11,930 nt of DNA from Oscillospiraceae bacterium (GTDB lineage: Bacteria > Bacillota > Clostridia > Oscillospirales > Ruminococcaceae), in assembly GCA_017848155.1 (NCBI GenBank), contig JAGAKC010000186.1, positions 1 to 11,930 of the forward strand, read 5' to 3'. This document shows, one piece after another, positions 5,529 through 11,930 of the stretch. The notes under the pieces are model-generated. The model did not search any database. It was not told the origin of the DNA and was given only the letters and a program-made list of their open reading frames with translations. Position 1 is the first letter of the stretch. The number at the start of each line of letters is the position of its first letter. The translations under genes were made by a program, and so were the position numbers.

Positions 5529-5897
5529 ATGGCAAGAATTGCTGGTGTAGACCTGCCCAAGGAAAAGCGCGTTGAAATAGGCCTGACCTATGTATACGGC
5601 ATCGGCAGAAAGTCTGCAAATGATATTCTGGCTAAGGCTGGCGTAAATCCTGACACACGTGTTAAGGATCTGACAGACGACGAAGAGGCTAGAATTCGTG
5701 AGGTTATCGACCACGGCTATCTCGTAGAGGGCGACCTCAGAAGAACTGTTGCTCTTAACATCAAGCGCCTGGTTGAGATCAACTGCTACCGTGGCATGCG
5801 TCACCGCAAGGGTCTTCCCTGCCGTGGACAGCGCACAAAGACAAACGCAAGAACTCGCAAGGGTCCTAAGAAGACTATTGCAAACAAGAAGAAGTAA
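5529..5897 (+). CDS. rpsM: 30S ribosomal protein S13
   Basis: S13 sits in the head of the small subunit and contacts the P-site tRNA and the 50S subunit through bridges B1a/B1b. The 122-residue protein begins [20 protein letters not shown], has the helix-hairpin-helix-like [12 protein letters not shown] segment, the conserved [29 protein letters not shown] block in its C-terminal part, and a lysine-rich tail that reaches the tRNA. An AGAGGAGG ribosome binding site ends at 5521, 7 nt before the ATG. rpsK follows after 24 nt. Confidence 0.98.
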
Positions 5898-5921: not shown

Positions 5922-6317
5922 ATGGCAACTAAGGGCAAGCAGGTTATCCGCAGACGCCGTGAGCGCAAGAACATTGAAAACGGTGCTGCTCATATCCAGT
6001 CCACATTTAATAACACAATCGTGACCATCACCGACCTTCAGGGCAACGCTCTTTCTTGGGCAAGCGCAGGCGGACTGGGCTTCAGAGGCTCCAGAAAGTC
6101 CACACCCTTCGCTGCACAGACAGCAGCTGACGTTGCAGCTAAGGCAGCTATGGAACACGGTCTTAAGACTGTTGAAGTATTCGTAAAGGGCCCCGGCGCA
6201 GGTCGTGAGGCAGCTATCAGAGCACTTCAGGCAGCAGGTCTTGAGGTTAAGCTCATCAAGGACGTTACACCTATCCCCCACAACGGATGCCGTCCCCCCA
6301 AGAGAAGACGTGTATAA
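5922..6317 (+). CDS. rpsK: 30S ribosomal protein S11
   Basis: S11 is a platform protein of the small subunit near the mRNA exit channel. The 131-residue protein has a basic N-terminus, then the core [20 protein letters not shown] and [16 protein letters not shown], the [18 protein letters not shown] stretch and the signature [16 protein letters not shown] at the C-terminus. The Asn-Gly pair in that signature is the position known to form isoaspartate in E. coli S11. A GAAAGGTGG-type site precedes the ATG. The stop at 6315-6317 is followed by an unusually long gap before rpsD. Confidence 0.98.
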
Positions 6318-6320
6318 AAG

Positions 6321-6391
6321 ATAACAACCGAGCTATTCGTTTACTCGGCGTCGGCAGCTTAGTGCCGATATTATTACTAGAATAACGGAGG
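6321..6391 (+). promoter_or_regulatory. Structured leader in front of rpsD
   Basis: The 82-nt gap between rpsK and rpsD can form three hairpins: CCGAG 6328-6332 with CTCGG 6344-6348; TCGGCA 6351-6356 with TGCCGA 6363-6368 (6 bp, loop GCTTAG); and TTATT 6371-6375 with AATAA 6381-6385. The third can be extended by CCG 6365-6367 pairing with CGG 6386-6388, which hides the first bases of the rpsD ribosome binding site (GGAGG 6387-6391) and excludes the second hairpin. No T-run follows, so this is not a terminator. A role in controlling S4 synthesis is inference from position and from S4 autoregulation known in other bacteria. Confidence 0.45.
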
Positions 6392-6399
6392 AAATTACA

Positions 6400-6996
6400 A
6401 TGGCAGTAAATCGCGATCCGATTTTAAAGAGATGCAGAGCGCTGGACCTCAGCCCCGCAGTTCTCGGTTATGACAAGAAGTCCAGAAGAAATCCCGGCGG
6501 AAACAGAAGAAAGAAGGAGTCCGAGTACGGCTCCCAGCTCAAGGAGAAGCAGAAGCTGAAGTTCATCTACGGCGTTCTCGAGAAGCAGTTCTATCACTAC
6601 TACGAGCTCGCTACAAAGATGGAGGGCATCGCAGGTGAGAACCTCATCGCTCTTCTGGAGTCCCGTCTGGACAACGTTGTTTTCAGAATGGGTCTTGCAT
6701 GCACAAGACGTGAAGCTCGTCAGCTCGTTACCCACGGTCATTTCTGTGTGAACGGCAAGAGAGTAAACATTCCTTCCTACAGAGTTAAGGTTGGCGATGT
6801 TATCTCCCTGAAGGAAACAAGCAAGAAGAGCAAGAAGTTTGAGCAGATCAATGAAGTTGCAGGCGGAAGGATCACTCCCCTGTGGCTGGAAGTTAACAAG
6901 GAAGCTTACACAGCAAAGGTACTCCGTGCTTTCCAGCGTGACGAACTCGACTATGAGATCGCTGAGCACTTAATTATCGAGTTGTATTCTAAATAA
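6400..6996 (+). CDS. rpsD: 30S ribosomal protein S4
   Basis: S4 is the primary 16S rRNA-binding assembly protein of the 5' domain and, in E. coli and B. subtilis, also represses its own mRNA. The 198-residue product has the N-terminal domain (LKEKQKLKFIYGVLEKQF) and the S4 RNA-binding domain at about residues 89-150 (LESRLDNVVFRMGLACTRRE, then ARQLVTHGHFCVNGKRVNIP). The N-terminus has one cysteine only, so it lacks the four-cysteine zinc site of some S4 proteins (C- form). The start ATG has GGAGG at 6387-6391. The gene lies between rpsK and rpoA, as in many Clostridia but unlike B. subtilis, where rpsD is separate. Confidence 0.97.
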   Translation: MAVNRDPILKRCRALDLSPAVLGYDKKSRRNPGGNRRKKESEYGSQLKEKQKLKFIYGVLEKQFYHYYELATKMEGIAGENLIALLESRLDNVVFRMGLACTRREARQLVTHGHFCVNGKRVNIPSYRVKVGDVISLKETSKKSKKFEQINEVAGGRITPLWLEVNKEAYTAKVLRAFQRDELDYEIAEHLIIELYSK

Positions 6997-7052
6997 TAGC
7001 TTTTTAGCATACAGATATTTAGTGCAGTTATTTTTAATTCATAATCTGCGGC

Positions 7053-7129
7053 CGCTGTTTAATTTCATCGGACTGTGCCAATACTTGATAGTAAAGGCAC
7101 AGGCAGAGTGTGATTTAAAATTAACAGCG
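7053..7129 (+). ncRNA. Candidate structured RNA element upstream of rpoA
   Basis: The 189-nt gap between rpsD and rpoA contains a nested RNA fold. The outer stem pairs 7053-7065 with 7118-7129: 12 Watson-Crick pairs with a single bulged T at 7060. Inside it, CTGTGCC 7073-7079 pairs with GGCACAG 7096-7102, then a symmetric AA/AA internal loop, then TACT 7082-7085 with AGTA 7090-7093 around a TGAT tetraloop. No T-run follows either stem, so it is not an intrinsic terminator. It ends 43 nt before the rpoA ribosome binding site. A ribosomal-protein-binding leader, an RNA processing site and a DNA operator are all possible. I do not recognise it as a named family. Confidence 0.5.
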
Positions 7130-7172
7130 AATACAACATTAAGCACAGGATAATTAACAGACGAGAACTTGT

Positions 7173-7178
7173 GGAGGG
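7173..7178 (+). promoter_or_regulatory. Ribosome binding site that sets the rpoA start
   Basis: GGAGGG lies 7 nt before ATG 7186 and supports that start. The in-frame GTG at 7171 overlaps the site and would add five residues (MEGYQ) foreign to the family. Confidence 0.85.
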
Positions 7179-7185
7179 TTACCAA

Positions 7186-8145
7186 ATGCTTGAAAAAATC
7201 GAAAAGCTCAATATTGAGACCTCGAAACTGAGGTCTGACGGAACTTATGGAATGTTCGTTCTGGAGCCTCTTCAGAGCGGATATGGAAACACCTTGGGCA
7301 ACAGCCTGAGAAGGGTGCTACTCTCCTCATTACCGGGTGTCGCAGCTACGTCCGTAAAGATCGACGGCGTTCAGCATGAATTTTCGACAGTTCCCGGAGT
7401 TAAAGAAGATGTTACAGAAATAATCCTCAATATCAAGGGACTCAGGGCAAAGATGTACGGCGAATCTCCCAAGACGATCTACATCGAAGCTGAGGGCGAA
7501 GGCGAGGTTACTGCCGGTGATATCAAGACCGACAGTGAGGTCGAGATACTTGATCCCGGCATGCATATCGCTACACTCAGTGCGGGCGCAAAGCTGTACA
7601 TGGACATTACACTTGACAGAGGCAGAGGCTATGTTTCTGCCGAGCAGAACAAGGAGTATATCCAGCCTGTTATCGGTGTTATTCCGATCGACAGTATCTA
7701 TACTCCCGTGCTCAAGTGCAACTACACTGTAGAGAATACCCGTGTTGGCCAGAGAACCGACTATGAGAAGCTCATAATCGAGATCTGGACAGACGGTACT
7801 ATCTCCGCTAAGGAGGCAGTTTCCTACGCTGCCAAGATCCTTATTGAAAGACTGAAGCTCTTTGCTGAGCTGTCCGATGATTCGGAGCAGCCCGAGCTGA
7901 TGGTGGAGAAGGAAGAGAACCGCAAGGACAAGCTGCTTGAGATGACTATCGAAGAGCTTGAGCTGTCCGTTCGTTCCTTCAACTGCCTTAAGAGAGCAGG
8001 TATCAATACGGTTGATGACCTTATCAACAAGTCTCCTGAGGACATGATGAAGGTCAGAAACCTTGGTAAGAAGTCCTTCGACGAGGTCAAGGCAAAGCTC
8101 AACTCCCTCGGATTTGACTTAACACCCTCTGAAGACAACAATTAA
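7186..8145 (+). CDS. rpoA: DNA-directed RNA polymerase subunit alpha
   Basis: The alpha subunit dimerises to nucleate RNA polymerase assembly, and its C-terminal domain binds UP elements and activators. From ATG 7186 the product is 319 residues. The N-terminal domain shows the assembly and dimer region ([20 protein letters not shown], then [19 protein letters not shown] and [12 protein letters not shown]). An acidic linker follows at about 225-245. The C-terminal domain contains [20 protein letters not shown] and [17 protein letters not shown], including the helix-hairpin-helix elements and the DNA-contacting arginine region. It is preceded by a long structured gap and followed by rplQ after 50 nt, the normal end of the alpha operon. 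Confidence 0.98.
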
Positions 8146-8195: not shown

Positions 8196-8537
8196 ATGCC
8201 AGGTACAAGAAAGCTGGGCAGACCCAGCGACCACAGAAAAGCAATGCTCAGAGCCATGGTTACATTCCTGCTTGAGAACGGTAAGATCGAAACTACCGTT
8301 ACACGTGCGAAGGAAGTTCGTGCGGAGGCAGAGAAGATGATCACTCTCGGCAAGGCAAACACCCTGCACACAAAGCGTCAGGTTCTGTCCTACGTTACTA
8401 AGGAAGATGTTGCTAAGAAGGTATTCGACGAGATCGCTCCTAAGTACGCTGACAAGAATGGCGGTTACACAAGAATCTACAAGATCGGTCCTCGCCGCGG
8501 CGACGCAGCTGAGATGGCTATCATTGAGCTTGTTTAA
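8196..8537 (+). CDS. rplQ: 50S ribosomal protein L17
   Basis: L17 lies near the polypeptide exit tunnel of the large subunit. The 113-residue product begins [20 protein letters not shown] and continues with [18 protein letters not shown], the L17 signature region, then ends [20 protein letters not shown] plus ELV. The length is standard for the Gram-positive short form. AAAGGAGA at about 8181-8188 precedes the ATG. It is the last gene of the ribosomal cluster here, closed by a strong terminator 13 nt after its stop. Confidence 0.98.
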
Positions 8538-8640: not shown

Positions 8641-9081
8641 ATGAAAATAAAAGAACTAGGAACAGACAATATAGAAGAAATAAAAAAGCTGTTTTTTGAA
8701 GTGTTCAGCGGAGAGCCGTGGAACGATGATTGGAGTGACAAGGAACAGCTTCATGAGTATATAATTGACCTTGTCGGAAACAGAAATTCACTTTCGCTGG
8801 GATTATACGAGGGGGATGAACTGATCGGTATATCGCTCGGGAGCATTATGCATTGGTATACGGGAACGGAGTATTACATATCTGAATTCTGCATAAAGAC
8901 AGAACATCAGGGCAAGAGTGCAGGGTCTTTCTTCCTGAAACAGGCAGAGGAACGTGTAAAGGCAAAGGGTATAACGCATATCTATCTACAAACAGACAGA
9001 ACAGCACCTGCCTATAGCTTCTATAAAAAGAATGGATTCGATGAGATTCCGGACCATGTATCGCTTTACAAATACTTTTGA
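8641..9081 (+). CDS. GNAT family N-acetyltransferase
   Basis: This 146-residue protein is a GCN5-related acetyltransferase, which moves an acetyl group from acetyl-CoA to an amine. The N-terminal region has the VFSGEPWNDDW motif (about 21-31), seen in clostridial GNATs that are often annotated as aminoglycoside 6'-acetyltransferase-like. The central strand and loop FCIKTEHQGKSAGSFF (about 83-98) is motif A, and AYSFYKKNGF (114-123) is the usual motif B region. In motif A, Ser93 stands where the first Gly of Q-x-x-G-x-G/A is expected. The start is ATG 8641 because AAAGGAGA lies 6 nt upstream; ATG 8623 overlaps the second TATAAT. Codon use is more A/T-rich (many ATA, AAA) than the ribosomal genes. 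The substrate is unknown, and resistance should not be assumed. Confidence 0.85.
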   Translation: MKIKELGTDNIEEIKKLFFEVFSGEPWNDDWSDKEQLHEYIIDLVGNRNSLSLGLYEGDELIGISLGSIMHWYTGTEYYISEFCIKTEHQGKSAGSFFLKQAEERVKAKGITHIYLQTDRTAPAYSFYKKNGFDEIPDHVSLYKYF

Positions 9082-9095
9082 CAGCAGGAGAGCAC

Positions 9096-9776
9096 ATGAA
9101 AAAAATATCACTTCCCGATGGGCGGGAGCTTCAATATGAGCTGATCCGGAAAAGTGTAAAGAATGTCAATATGCGTATCAAAGCGGACGGAGTAGTGTAT
9201 GTTTCGGCGAATACCCGTGTCAGCGTAAAGCGTATCGAGGAGATACTGACAGAGCGGGCAGAATACATACTTAAGGCGGCGGAGCAGCTGAAACAGCGTG
9301 ACCTGCGCAGTGAGATAACTGCTGACAGTATGCGCTGGCTTGGACGGGAATACGATGTCCGTGTGATACGCAATTTCAGTGAGCGTGTAGCTTTGGAGGA
9401 TGACGAGCTTCGTGTGTTTACGTCACATCCCGAGCAGGCTGCGACTATGCTGCGGGAGTGGGCAGCTGACAGGTTTTCTGAGCTTCTTGCTGAATTGAAC
9501 GATCAAGTGAGAAGCTCGCTTTTGAGTGCAGGAATTACTCCTCCGCCGACACGAATAACGATAAAAGACATGAAAACACGCTGGGGAAGTTGTTCATACA
9601 CCCGTGGTCATATCTCGATGAATCTGCGCCTTATGGCGTATCCGAGAGAAACAGTGCTTTCCGTCCTGTGGCATGAGTATGCACATTACTGGCATCATGA
9701 CCATTCAGAGAGATTTTATGGATTTCTGCTGAGGTTCTACCCCGATTATCATAAATGGAACAGATTACTTAAATAG
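9096..9776 (+). CDS. YgjP-like zinc metallopeptidase (DUF45, M48-type)
   Basis: The 226-residue product matches the YgjP/DUF45 family of predicted cytoplasmic zinc metallopeptidases, related to the M48 and SprT-like zincins. The N-terminal half has the family pattern of a short beta domain (QYELIRKSVKNVNMRI, then VYVSANTRVSVKRIEEI). The catalytic half has WGSCS (163-167), the active-site HEYAH (H193, E194, H197) and a third ligand H203 in the DHSERFY segment, the usual HExxH-x5-H spacing. The end RFYPDYHKWNRLLK is also typical. There is no signal peptide. ATG 9096 follows AGGAG at 9086-9090; a TTG at 9078 is rejected. It lies 14 nt after the GNAT gene and probably shares its transcript. The natural substrate is not known. 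Confidence 0.9.
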   Translation: MKKISLPDGRELQYELIRKSVKNVNMRIKADGVVYVSANTRVSVKRIEEILTERAEYILKAAEQLKQRDLRSEITADSMRWLGREYDVRVIRNFSERVALEDDELRVFTSHPEQAATMLREWAADRFSELLAELNDQVRSSLLSAGITPPPTRITIKDMKTRWGSCSYTRGHISMNLRLMAYPRETVLSVLWHEYAHYWHHDHSERFYGFLLRFYPDYHKWNRLLK

Positions 9777-9822: not shown

Positions 9823-11930
9823 TCAGAGATACTTCTTTGCAGCAGCAGCTGCGCTCTGCGCTGCTGTGACGTCGTTATTTACAGACGACTTGAAGCTGGA
9901 CAGAGTGTTTGCGTTTGAACCGAGCTGGAATGTATCAGCTGCGGACTCAAGCTCAGCGCAAGCAGTCTTTAAGTAGCTGTAAGCGCTGGAGTAAGCGGAG
10001 GGTGCGGAGGAAAGCATATTGCAGTAGCTTCTTGCAGCCTGTGTGTACTTTGCAGCCTTCATGTATGTGGACATGTTGTTTACAAGTACTTCGCTGAACT
10101 TAGCTTCAAATGTGCTGTCCTTAAGAGCTGCAACCTTGGAGCGCATGGTGCTGTATGCGGCGGATGCATTCTCAACTGCTGCGATAGCTTCGCCAAGAAC
10201 GTATGCATAATACTCGTTCTTGTCTGTAGCGGTCTGTGCGGAGGTGTTGAGTCCTGCGATAGCACAGCTGTTCTTTGCATAGCTGTTGAAGCTGTTGAGG
10301 TAGCTGTCACACTTGGATTCATAACCCTTGAAAGTAGAGGGATTTACAACATAGTTGTAGTAATCAAGATACTTGCTCTGGAGTGTTGTGAGTGCACTGT
10401 ATGCACCCTTAAGCTCGGAAGAAGTAGGCTTTGCAGCGCTTACAGCAGATGCAACTGCAGACTTACCGCTCTTGATGTTCTTGATCATGGATGTGGCGAT
10501 ATCACGTGTGTAGAACGATTTAGCTGCGGTCTCCTCTGCTCTTGAGTCGAATGCGATAGTTGCCACTGTAGTTCTGGCAAGCAGGTCTACCTTACCCATT
10601 TCCTCGGAGATAGCTGCGAAGGCAGCAACGATCTTGTCGCGCTCCTTATCCTGTGCCTTAACAGTAGCGGAAGGCACATAAGTGGGTGCATCAGGTTTTG
10701 TTGTCGTTGTTGCACGTGTCGTAGTAGTTGTTGTAGCAGGCTTTGTTGTGGATGTAGCCGACGATGCAGAGGAAGATGTGGAAGGAGTGCTTACTGTAGT
10801 TGAAGAAGTAGATGTGACCTCAGGCTCGGATGTATCCTCAGGTGTGGAGGCATTGCTGTCCTCTACAGTTTCTACGGGGTCAACCTCAACACTTTCAACC
10901 GGCTCGGGAGTATCGGTAACTTCCTCGGGGGTAGTTTCTGTAGCAGAAGTGGTCGTTGCGGAAGATGCGGTAGTATCCTGCGGCTCACTTTCTGTCGGAG
11001 TAGTTGTAGTGGTGGAAACAGTGGTTGCATTTGCATTTAACTGTTCATTACCCGTAAGGCTGCTTTTGCCATCGTTTATTCCGCCTGATGTAAGCAGCAG
11101 AATGCCAAGAACGACTACCACAGCAGCTATGCCGACCATAGCAGGAATACTGAGAACGCCGAACAGCTTGAACGGCTCCTTCTGTACCTTTGCCATTTTT
11201 GGCTTGTATTCTTCACGCTTGGGAGCGCCGCAGTTCTTGCAGACAAGCTCCTTCTCGTACATATCCTGACCGCAGTTGCGGCAGTAAAGCAGACGACCGA
11301 GATCCACCTCAGGCTCTGCCTCGGCTTCAGGCTCGGCAGCTGCAGCTGCGACAGTAGAGGCAGTTGCGCTAACCGCAGAAGCAATACTTGCGCTGCTGTT
11401 GTCATCGTAGGCGCTGCTGTTATTGTATGTGTCACTGTAGCTTGGCTCGTATGCGCTGTTTGCTTCAGGCTCGGTCACAGTGTCGGATACGTTGTCTGTG
11501 TATGTATCTTCTGCAGCTGTATATTCAGCAGGTGCAGGTTCGTTTGCAGGTTCTTCCGTATCCTCAAAAACAGGGATGTCGGCAGCATATGTCGGTTCAT
11601 CATCGCTGGTGTATGCAGGGATGTCTTCAACAGAAGTATCGTCGTCCTGATATACAGGAATATCGACCGCAGGCTCCTCATAAACGGGAGCTTCCTCGAC
11701 AGCCGCAGGCTCTTCGTAAGCAGGCTCCTCATAAACGGGAGCTTCTTCAACAGCCGCAGGTTCTTCGTAAGCAGGCTCCTCATAAACGGGAGCTTCCTCA
11801 ACAGCCGCAGGCTCTTCGTAAGCAGGCTCCTCATAAACGGGAACTTCCTCGACAGCCGCAGGCTCTTCGTAGGCAGGCTCCTCATAAACGGGAGCTTCCT
11901 CGACAGCCGCAGGCTCTTCGTAAGAAGGAT
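9823..11930 (-). CDS. Repeat-rich zinc-ribbon membrane protein, N-terminus outside window
   Basis: The frame stays open to the right edge, so at least 701 residues are encoded and the start is missing; GTG 11478 is an internal valine. Five acidic 17-residue repeats come first (11674-11928), then degenerate relatives with (D/E)IPxY-like motifs, then an Asn/Ser/Ala-rich stretch. Next is a zinc ribbon YCRNCGQDMYEKELVCKNCG (C-x2-C...C-x2-C, 11230-11283), a basic segment and one transmembrane helix (about 11089-11160). A Thr/Ser/Glu/Pro-rich linker with Thr runs follows (about 10670-11060), and an Ala/Ser/Tyr-rich, probably helical domain of about 280 residues with four cysteines ends the protein. 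By the positive-inside rule the repeats and ribbon are probably cytoplasmic and the helical domain extracytoplasmic. Zinc ribbon plus membrane helix is a common arrangement in Clostridia; I do not recognise the C-terminal domain. Function unknown. Confidence 0.85.
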   Translation of the reverse strand, partial: PSYEEPAAVEEAPVYEEPAYEEPAAVEEVPVYEEPAYEEPAAVEEAPVYEEPAYEEPAAVEEAPVYEEPAYEEPAAVEEAPVYEEPAVDIPVYQDDDTSVEDIPAYTSDDEPTYAADIPVFEDTEEPANEPAPAEYTAAEDTYTDNVSDTVTEPEANSAYEPSYSDTYNNSSAYDDNSSASIASAVSATASTVAAAAAEPEAEAEPEVDLGRLLYCRNCGQDMYEKELVCKNCGAPKREEYKPKMAKVQKEPFKLFGVLSIPAMVGIAAVVVVLGILLLTSGGINDGKSSLTGNEQLNANATTVSTTTTTPTESEPQDTTASSATTTSATETTPEEVTDTPEPVESVEVDPVETVEDSNASTPEDTSEPEVTSTSSTTVSTPSTSSSASSATSTTKPATTTTTTRATTTTKPDAPTYVPSATVKAQDKERDKIVAAFAAISEEMGKVDLLARTTVATIAFDSRAEETAAKSFYTRDIATSMIKNIKSGKSAVASAVSAAKPTSSELKGAYSALTTLQSKYLDYYNYVVNPSTFKGYESKCDSYLNSFNSYAKNSCAIAGLNTSAQTATDKNEYYAYVLGEAIAAVENASAAYSTMRSKVAALKDSTFEAKFSEVLVNNMSTYMKAAKYTQAARSYCNMLSSAPSAYSSAYSYLKTACAELESAADTFQLGSNANTLSSFKSSVNNDVTAAQSAAAAAKKYL
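11674..11928 (-). repeat. Five tandem 51-bp repeats coding for 17 residues each
   Basis: Five head-to-tail units start at 11674, 11725, 11776, 11827 and 11878, each exactly 51 bp. On the minus strand each encodes PAYEEPAAVEEAPVYEE, with one Ala-to-Val change in the unit at 11827 and one Ala-to-Ser change in the unit at 11878. Only a few bases differ between units, including at silent sites, so the copies are recent or homogenised. The array probably continues past the window edge. Confidence 0.95.

Follow-up and report, generated by a model that had tools for sequence, protein, structure and literature searches.

The untranslated stretch before rpoA in this genome contains a conserved structured RNA, a long AU-rich helix designated P1. 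The window (the whole 11,930-nt stretch of DNA analysed) holds the end of a spc/alpha operon, and P1 lies there between rpsD and rpoA. We tentatively propose that P1 is a cis-acting internal leader of rpoA-rplQ, to which a product of the same operon would bind.

Genes were named on the basis of their translations and tblastn among the loci of relatives. Measured from the open reading frames, the gap before rpoA has the 189 nt given in an earlier, sequence-only reading of this DNA. The features of the region are as follows, with genes defined by open reading frame and translation.

5529-5897, rpsM
5922-6317, rpsK
6318-6399 (core 6325-6373), second RNA, in the rpsK-rpsD gap: two adjacent hairpins before the rpsD ribosome-binding site
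6400-6996, rpsD
6997-7185, plus strand, the whole rpsD-rpoA gap carrying the element (189 nt, rpsD stop to rpoA ATG)
6999-7008, plus strand, small hairpin adjoining the rpsD stop (3 bp in the window; gap fold)
7023-7049, plus strand, 5' strand of P1, the conserved AU-rich helix, with the near-invariant core at 7028-7039
7052-7071, plus strand, P2, apical hairpin with a UGUUUA-type loop (gap fold; weak in the window; seen in the window's genus)
7073-7102, plus strand, P3, hairpin CUGUGCC-AA-UACU-UGAU-AGUA-AA-GGCACAG (gap fold)
7103-7129, plus strand, 3' strand of P1, partner of 7023-7049, with the core at 7113-7124
7173-7178, plus strand, Shine-Dalgarno region of rpoA, GGAGGG, 43 nt downstream of P1 (pairing not consistent)
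7186, ATG of rpoA
8196-8537, rplQ

Elsewhere in the window, an open-ended reading frame on the minus strand (9823-11928) showed tandem VYEEPAYEEPAAVEE-type repeats, a CxxC...CxxC ribbon-like stretch and a membrane-like segment. Another frame (9078-9776) has a HEYAH...H motif, by which we take it to be a putative SprT/YgjP-type metallopeptidase.

The gap fold (6994-7197) had a free energy of -53.9 kcal/mol, while shuffled sequences averaged -37.5 (z = -4.09), and 7040-7140 gave z = -3.37; in neither case was any of 200 shuffled sequences as stable, confirming that a nested fold here is beyond chance. In the window, P1 comprises 27 positions and 23 pairs, with mismatches at A7026.A7126, U7031.U7121, U7038.U7114 and A7044.G7108. 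The sequence-only reading had placed a nested RNA between rpsD and rpoA, and its structure, its place and its inner hairpin stand; the latter (7073-7102; 7 + 4 bp, with a TGAT loop and an internal AA/AA loop) was drawn exactly and belongs to the minimum-energy fold. The strands of its outer stem do not. The letters of that 12-bp stem with one bulged T are present (7053-7065, CGCTGTTTAATTT, versus 7118-7129, AAATTAACAGCG), but the full-gap fold pairs the 3' strand with 7023-7049. The range 7053-7129 thus lacks the entire 5' strand of the conserved helix, because the true partner lies upstream. As a conserved helix the 12-bp stem was rejected: among 15 relatives, all 12 pairs were kept by L005 alone, L007 kept 11 with another bulge, and the other 13 kept 7-10 (best 12-13 nt anywhere in the loop).

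Including both arms, the span of P1 varied from 43 to 196 nt across loci, since the apical part is freely replaced. It consists of two hairpins in the window's genus and of almost nothing in L038, L040, L042 and L051, where both P1 arms are kept and the whole hairpin is only 43-46 nt. Changes in P2 among relatives, collected by eye, include CCG/CGG, CTGC/GCAG and CCGC/GCGG. The YCAAURCU part of P3 recurs within the window's genus; a stem of at least 4 bp was found in 31 of 36 gaps with CAATRCT, compared to a mean of 18.1 and a maximum of 26 in a letter-shuffled control (200 rounds). Over 81 gaps the predicted probability of P1 averaged 0.89, and it was below 0.4 in five (L025, L058, L077, L142 and L145). 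An H-type pseudoknot in a second genus was considered and rejected by eye: what had looked like its second stem is just a simple hairpin, and the partner of the loop is altered in L138, L140 and L150.

In the predicted folds, P1 was not seen to pair directly with the ribosome-binding site of rpoA. The mean unpaired probability of this site was 0.43 in the 81 gaps (range 0.02-0.85). It was below 0.25 in 25 of them, mostly in the second genus, so cover by leader parts other than P1 is possible there, and in these models is not general. Within 6900-7250 of the window no terminator-like site was found (0.2 in shuffles) and no G+C-rich hairpin followed by a T-run, in agreement with the earlier statement that the structure is not a terminator; nor did the window show a consensus-like internal promoter near the element. 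By eye, no conserved T-run or terminator was evident downstream in the gaps inspected.

Near the rpsD stop, longer and variable hairpins seem, by eye, to stand in place of the small hairpin in many relatives. Eight loci (L012, L013, L017, L019, L020, L022, L025 and L027) have about 45-60 extra nt at one point by the stop, before GCATACAG; their P1 arms are unchanged. The sequence GCATATAATG just after the stop is retained in L054, L160, L166 and L181 despite the loss or strong divergence of P1, and it is possibly a signal of its own. Many second-genus members have a TATAAT-like stretch downstream of the rpsD stop, which was rejected as a promoter: it has no conserved -35 (by eye) and is absent from the window's genus.

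Covariation, a check called for with the sequence-only reading, was strong for P1. In 53 sequences and 19 pairs, 92.9% of cells were paired, and 12 of the 19 pairs showed changes on both sides. The number of cells changed on both sides was 96, compared to 40.8 +/- 5.1 after shuffling. The covariation score was 0.257 versus 0.135 +/- 0.007 and was reached by none of 500 shuffles; with the partners slid by 1-3 columns it was at most 0.062. Because such shuffles ignore relatedness, the changes were also mapped on a tree of rpoA and S4, and the result agreed: on 14 branches both sides changed with the pair kept, versus 0, 2, 2, 0, 1 and 0 branches for six slides of the partners. Some pairs run against this pattern. 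The pair at position -1, just outside the outer end of the core, is non-standard in 30 of 53 sequences, and pairing is lost at two distal positions, in 10 and 14 of the 53.

The core is also conserved in sequence. Over all pairs of the 53 sequences, its 12 positions per arm were 96.8% identical, while positions 13-18 were 56.5% and the apical part 42.8% identical; the same comparison gave 49.6% for four-fold sites of rpsD and 74.3% for rpsD as a whole. Of the 44 distinct arm pairs, 43 have U.U as the first mismatch, all but that of L054, which lacks a real 3' arm, and 39 have U.U as the second (otherwise three U.G, one U-A and one C.C). Both mismatches are kept in L050, L059, L163, L164 and L167, in which the core is altered to AUUUCAAAUU/AUUUUGAAUU. 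L181, from a distant second-genus member with rpoA matched at 64% identity, apparently has another compensated form by eye, which the strict helix scan described below did not accept. Both strands of the core read AUUUnnAAUU, and the two central pairs of this ten-base core change together. The core is conserved beyond the needs of pairing while its flanks drift; therefore, something likely reads its sequence, and a partner doing so is likely what would leave such a contrast between core and flanks. Clearly, P1 is a real conserved structured RNA.

Relatives were collected by an rpoA similarity search, from which the best 80 of at least 576 confirmed loci were taken. Among the matches listed, the closest named relatives were metagenome-assembled genomes called Oscillospiraceae or Clostridia. 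In these best 80 of at least 576, rpsD lies upstream of rpoA in every locus and rplQ was found in 79. A search by sequence with at most 4 substitutions per arm detected both P1 arms in 54 of the 80 and in the window, and a clear variant in L050 makes it 55. The P1-bearing loci of this set have rpsD-rpoA gaps of 176-455 nt. In the remaining 25 loci, from which P1 is missing, gaps are 30-198 nt and rpoA is 74-77% identical to that of the window; P1 is present in L055, L056, L058 and L077 although their rpoA identity falls in the same range. Close relatives with the same gap retain the structure.

We built a covariance model of P1 (R1); large genome searches with it use stricter filters and lose weak matches. 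The genome of the window has one R1 site, apart from a minus-strand echo of the inverted repeat. In the window's genus, R1 matched 34 of 43 genomes (25 of the 27 good ones), and in the second genus 48 of 71 (28 of 41 good ones). Two of the nine R1-negative genomes of the window's genus were inspected and both have P1, with a long loop in G412 (L156) and Ns in the loop in G409 (L158). In a family sample 10 of 248 genomes matched, including a strong match in G559, of a third genus, and one by chance in G639 (E = 0.018, away from rpsD-rpoA, where that genome has a 56-nt gap). Matches were found in 19 of 395 genomes of an order sample; in a phylum sample the window's genome alone of 398 matched, with none among the other 397. 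P1 carriers are mostly gut bacteria.

The position of P1 is fixed. In 70 of 71 loci fetched behind a subset of the R1 matches it lies between rpsD and rpoA, with rpoA directly downstream, so that the first downstream gene is not a ribosomal-protein gene. In 125 distinct gaps, a set enriched for R1 matches, a looser test found P1 in 85. The strict helix scan was positive in 79, versus 11 of 500 Markov-resampled gaps; its positive in L073 looks like chance, and it missed several gaps with one U.U as U.G or U-A. P1 is clearly absent from L160 (a 58-nt gap in the second genus) and L063 (30 nt), among others, so losses seem to have happened. Since several genomes of the second genus and of sister genera do not have P1, it is not needed in every lineage for expression of rpoA.

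P1 is thus left as a helix that some factor probably binds or cleaves. Tentatively, a protein from the same operon would bind the core of P1, with L17 as the first candidate and S4 as the second. L17 is put first because it is the only ribosomal protein of the rpoA-rplQ pair; the available text of PMC7247131 applies the same rule, that the ligand is the product of the 'only ribosomal-protein gene regulated'. Binding would alter how the rpoA-rplQ part of the message is translated or how stable it is, and would hold its output apart from that of the upstream ribosomal-protein genes. Because the ribosome-binding site of rpoA is not a pairing partner of P1, any effect would depend on the bound protein, which might block ribosome loading or scanning from rpsD, or guard or expose a cleavage site. 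The 16S and 23S regions of G091 (second genus) shared no words with the P1 element beyond those shared with shuffles; we therefore saw no sign of rRNA mimicry. To our knowledge, no ribosomal-protein leader has a long AU helix with U.U mismatches as its core. Both points speak against the proposal. If a protein reads the core, such a helix would be an uncommon RNA-protein recognition site. In the available text of PMC10931766, alpha of E. coli is described as 'regulated independently' of the S4-controlled cistrons, so an element before rpoA would have a job, and regulation of the ribosomal-protein genes of the alpha operon in Bacilli is said there to be one that 'remains unknown'. P1 is a concrete test object for control of alpha separate from the co-transcribed ribosomal proteins.

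The main rival to binding by an operon protein is processing, which we consider possible, if doubtful. An RNase III-type double-stranded RNA endonuclease would cut at P1 and split the ribosomal-protein message from that of rpoA-rplQ, giving them differing stability. With 23 pairs in 27 positions, P1 is about two helical turns, the length of duplex such an enzyme calls for; both arms persist in loci with a hairpin of only 43-46 nt, and P1 stands at the boundary between ribosomal-protein and RNA-polymerase genes. At the rplL-rpoB junction of E. coli, RNase III-type processing separates the messages; one paper reportedly covers both attenuation and processing at rplJL-rpoBC. RNase III, however, needs little sequence, and the core of P1 is almost invariant while its paired flanks drift.

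A pause or antitermination role of P1, in which it would affect the polymerase during transcription and tune how much continues into rpoA-rplQ, is unlikely. The operon is long, and the window has no terminator- or promoter-like site near P1, which would fit such an action; the gaps inspected, however, show by eye no conserved T-run or terminator downstream, and no Rfam model matched, antiterminator RNAs included.

Autoregulation by alpha is very unlikely. Here the alpha homodimer would bind the near-symmetric AU helix in its own mRNA and limit its own synthesis. The AUUUnnAAUU on both core strands, the joint change of the central two pairs and the position of rpoA directly downstream in 70 of 71 loci would agree with this. 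The symmetry is weak, though: about 5 of 6 informative pairs fit it, roughly p = 0.1 by our own reckoning, and we rejected it as proof of a dimeric binder. The known AT-rich target of alpha is DNA, not RNA. Equally slight is the chance of a combined arrangement with P1 as an RNA operator for the alpha dimer and S4 controlling rpsD via the separate upstream RNA; if true, this lineage would control alpha autogenously inside a ribosomal-protein operon.

A role of the inverted repeat as DNA, whether as two operator sites or as a cruciform, is disfavoured and barely plausible: the arms are AT-rich near-palindromes, but the flanks contain G-U pairs and compensatory changes, and the span from first to last arm base differs among loci (43 to 196 nt). 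A functionless repeat, chance or mobile, for which AT-richness and nothing further speaks, is refuted by the covariation, by conservation above that of silent sites, by the single site in the window's genome and by the same place in 70 of 71 loci elsewhere.

The second RNA of this operon bears on the choice between L17 and S4 as the candidate partner of P1. It lies in the rpsK-rpsD gap and consists of the hairpins CCGAG-(loop with CGUUUR)-CUCGG and GUCGG-loop-CCGAUA. In 53 sequences 95.6% of its cells were paired, with a covariation score of 0.328 versus 0.147 +/- 0.010 after shuffling and at most 0.078 in the slid control. Two weaker measures were less clear, as 7 of 500 shuffles reached the number of pairs with both sides changed and 71 of 500 that of pair types. 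With a model of this RNA (R2), matches at E <= 0.01 were obtained in 53 of 81 sources. Among 247 genomes of the order, 27 matched; 18 matches were strong (E <= 5e-7) and nine weak. One strong match, in another family, lies directly before an rpsD of the MAV form (see below). A second match in G231 (E = 1e-5), antisense in a mutL-like reading frame, was taken as chance. The RNA also occurs where P1 is absent (L054, E = 2e-9; L063, E = 0.13, by eye). It had no Rfam match, and a likeness to the rpsD-rpoA RNA was rejected, as R2 had no match in the latter gap in the 81 sources at E up to 10. In L142, L143, L055 and L056 its second hairpin has long, partly repeated insertions rich in GCAG/CTGC. From its position this RNA is likely the S4 site of this lineage and a better candidate for it than P1; because a conserved RNA directly before rpsD is the more natural S4 site, P1 was not assigned to S4 first.

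S4 was typed by its N-terminus, a MAV/MAI/MAK start without the PGQHG stretch versus a form with PGQHG. P1 was present in 82 of 98 distinct gaps of the former type, 0 of 20 of the latter and 3 of 7 untyped, an association that is confounded with descent. In our view the two types correspond to the C- (zinc-free) and C+ (zinc-binding) forms of PMC3087516. The S4 encoded by rpsD in the window (6400-6996), inside the alpha operon, has an unusual N-terminus and is probably the zinc-free form. According to the available text of PMC3087516, which covers 660 genomes, C+ S4 is found in the alpha operon of all Clostridia but one, which makes the form present here an unusual one. A single full S4 gene was found in each of 11 genomes examined, other matches being short and weak; in G027 the single gene shows as two pieces of one place.

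Like known ribosomal-protein leaders, P1 has a secondary structure supported by covariation. At gathering scores, Rfam gave no match in the window, in agreement with the sequence-only reading, and none in 20 loci with P1 or its variants, one tRNA apart; within 6950-7200 there were only six sub-threshold eukaryotic RNA models (E 1.4-8.5). The S4 leader of the E. coli alpha operon, which we take to be Rfam Alpha_RBS, is likewise a structured RNA of the alpha operon, and it controls ribosomal-protein cistrons apart from alpha. As described in the available text of PMC10931766, it lies before rpsM and is a pseudoknot containing the ribosome-binding site of that gene, whereas P1 is a plain long helix between rpsD and rpoA. 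A Clostridia S4 leader has been predicted for the operon rpsM-rpsK-rpsD-rpoA-rplQ (Eckert and Weinberg 2020, PMC7247131). The available text lists it for an operon starting at rpsM and gives it a conserved GAAA at its 5' end; P1, which comes after rpsD, is set apart from it by position. The gap between rpmJ and rpsM, where measured in loci with P1, spans 12-94 nt. The rpsD-type S4 leader of B. subtilis lies upstream of rpsD, whereas P1 lies downstream and matches no family. The conserved GUAA with which the Firmicutes S4 leader imitates rRNA is not conserved in P1: of 81 gaps with both arms, 30 have GUAA within the P1 span and 10 have it in the apical part, including P3 of the closest relatives of the window.

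Two further RNAs are connected with L17 in the available text of PMC7247131, L17DE, a structured RNA downstream of L17 genes in Firmicutes, and an L17 leader, from Actino- and Proteobacteria, for which rplQ is the only gene listed. Both, like P1, are structured RNAs in the neighbourhood of rplQ, but P1 lies before rpoA and has no Rfam match. The rplL-rpoBC junction of E. coli, with an attenuator and an RNase III site, stands likewise at a border between ribosomal-protein and RNA-polymerase genes; unlike it, the window has no terminator-like attenuator, and P1 has a conserved core sequence.

In a literature search covering mainly open-access papers, we found no published RNA between rpsD and rpoA in this lineage. 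The pair rpsD-rpoA is reportedly named in a Campylobacter assay paper (PMC10936861) and in one on gene order in Gammaproteobacteria and Bacilli (PMC8046335). The available text of PMC8040213 gives 508 candidate RNAs directly upstream of genes, and P1 is possibly an unnamed entry among them. As far as Rfam and literature searches go, P1 is undescribed; its kind, a cis-acting RNA of a ribosomal-protein operon, is known, and what is new is its internal position, directly before rpoA.
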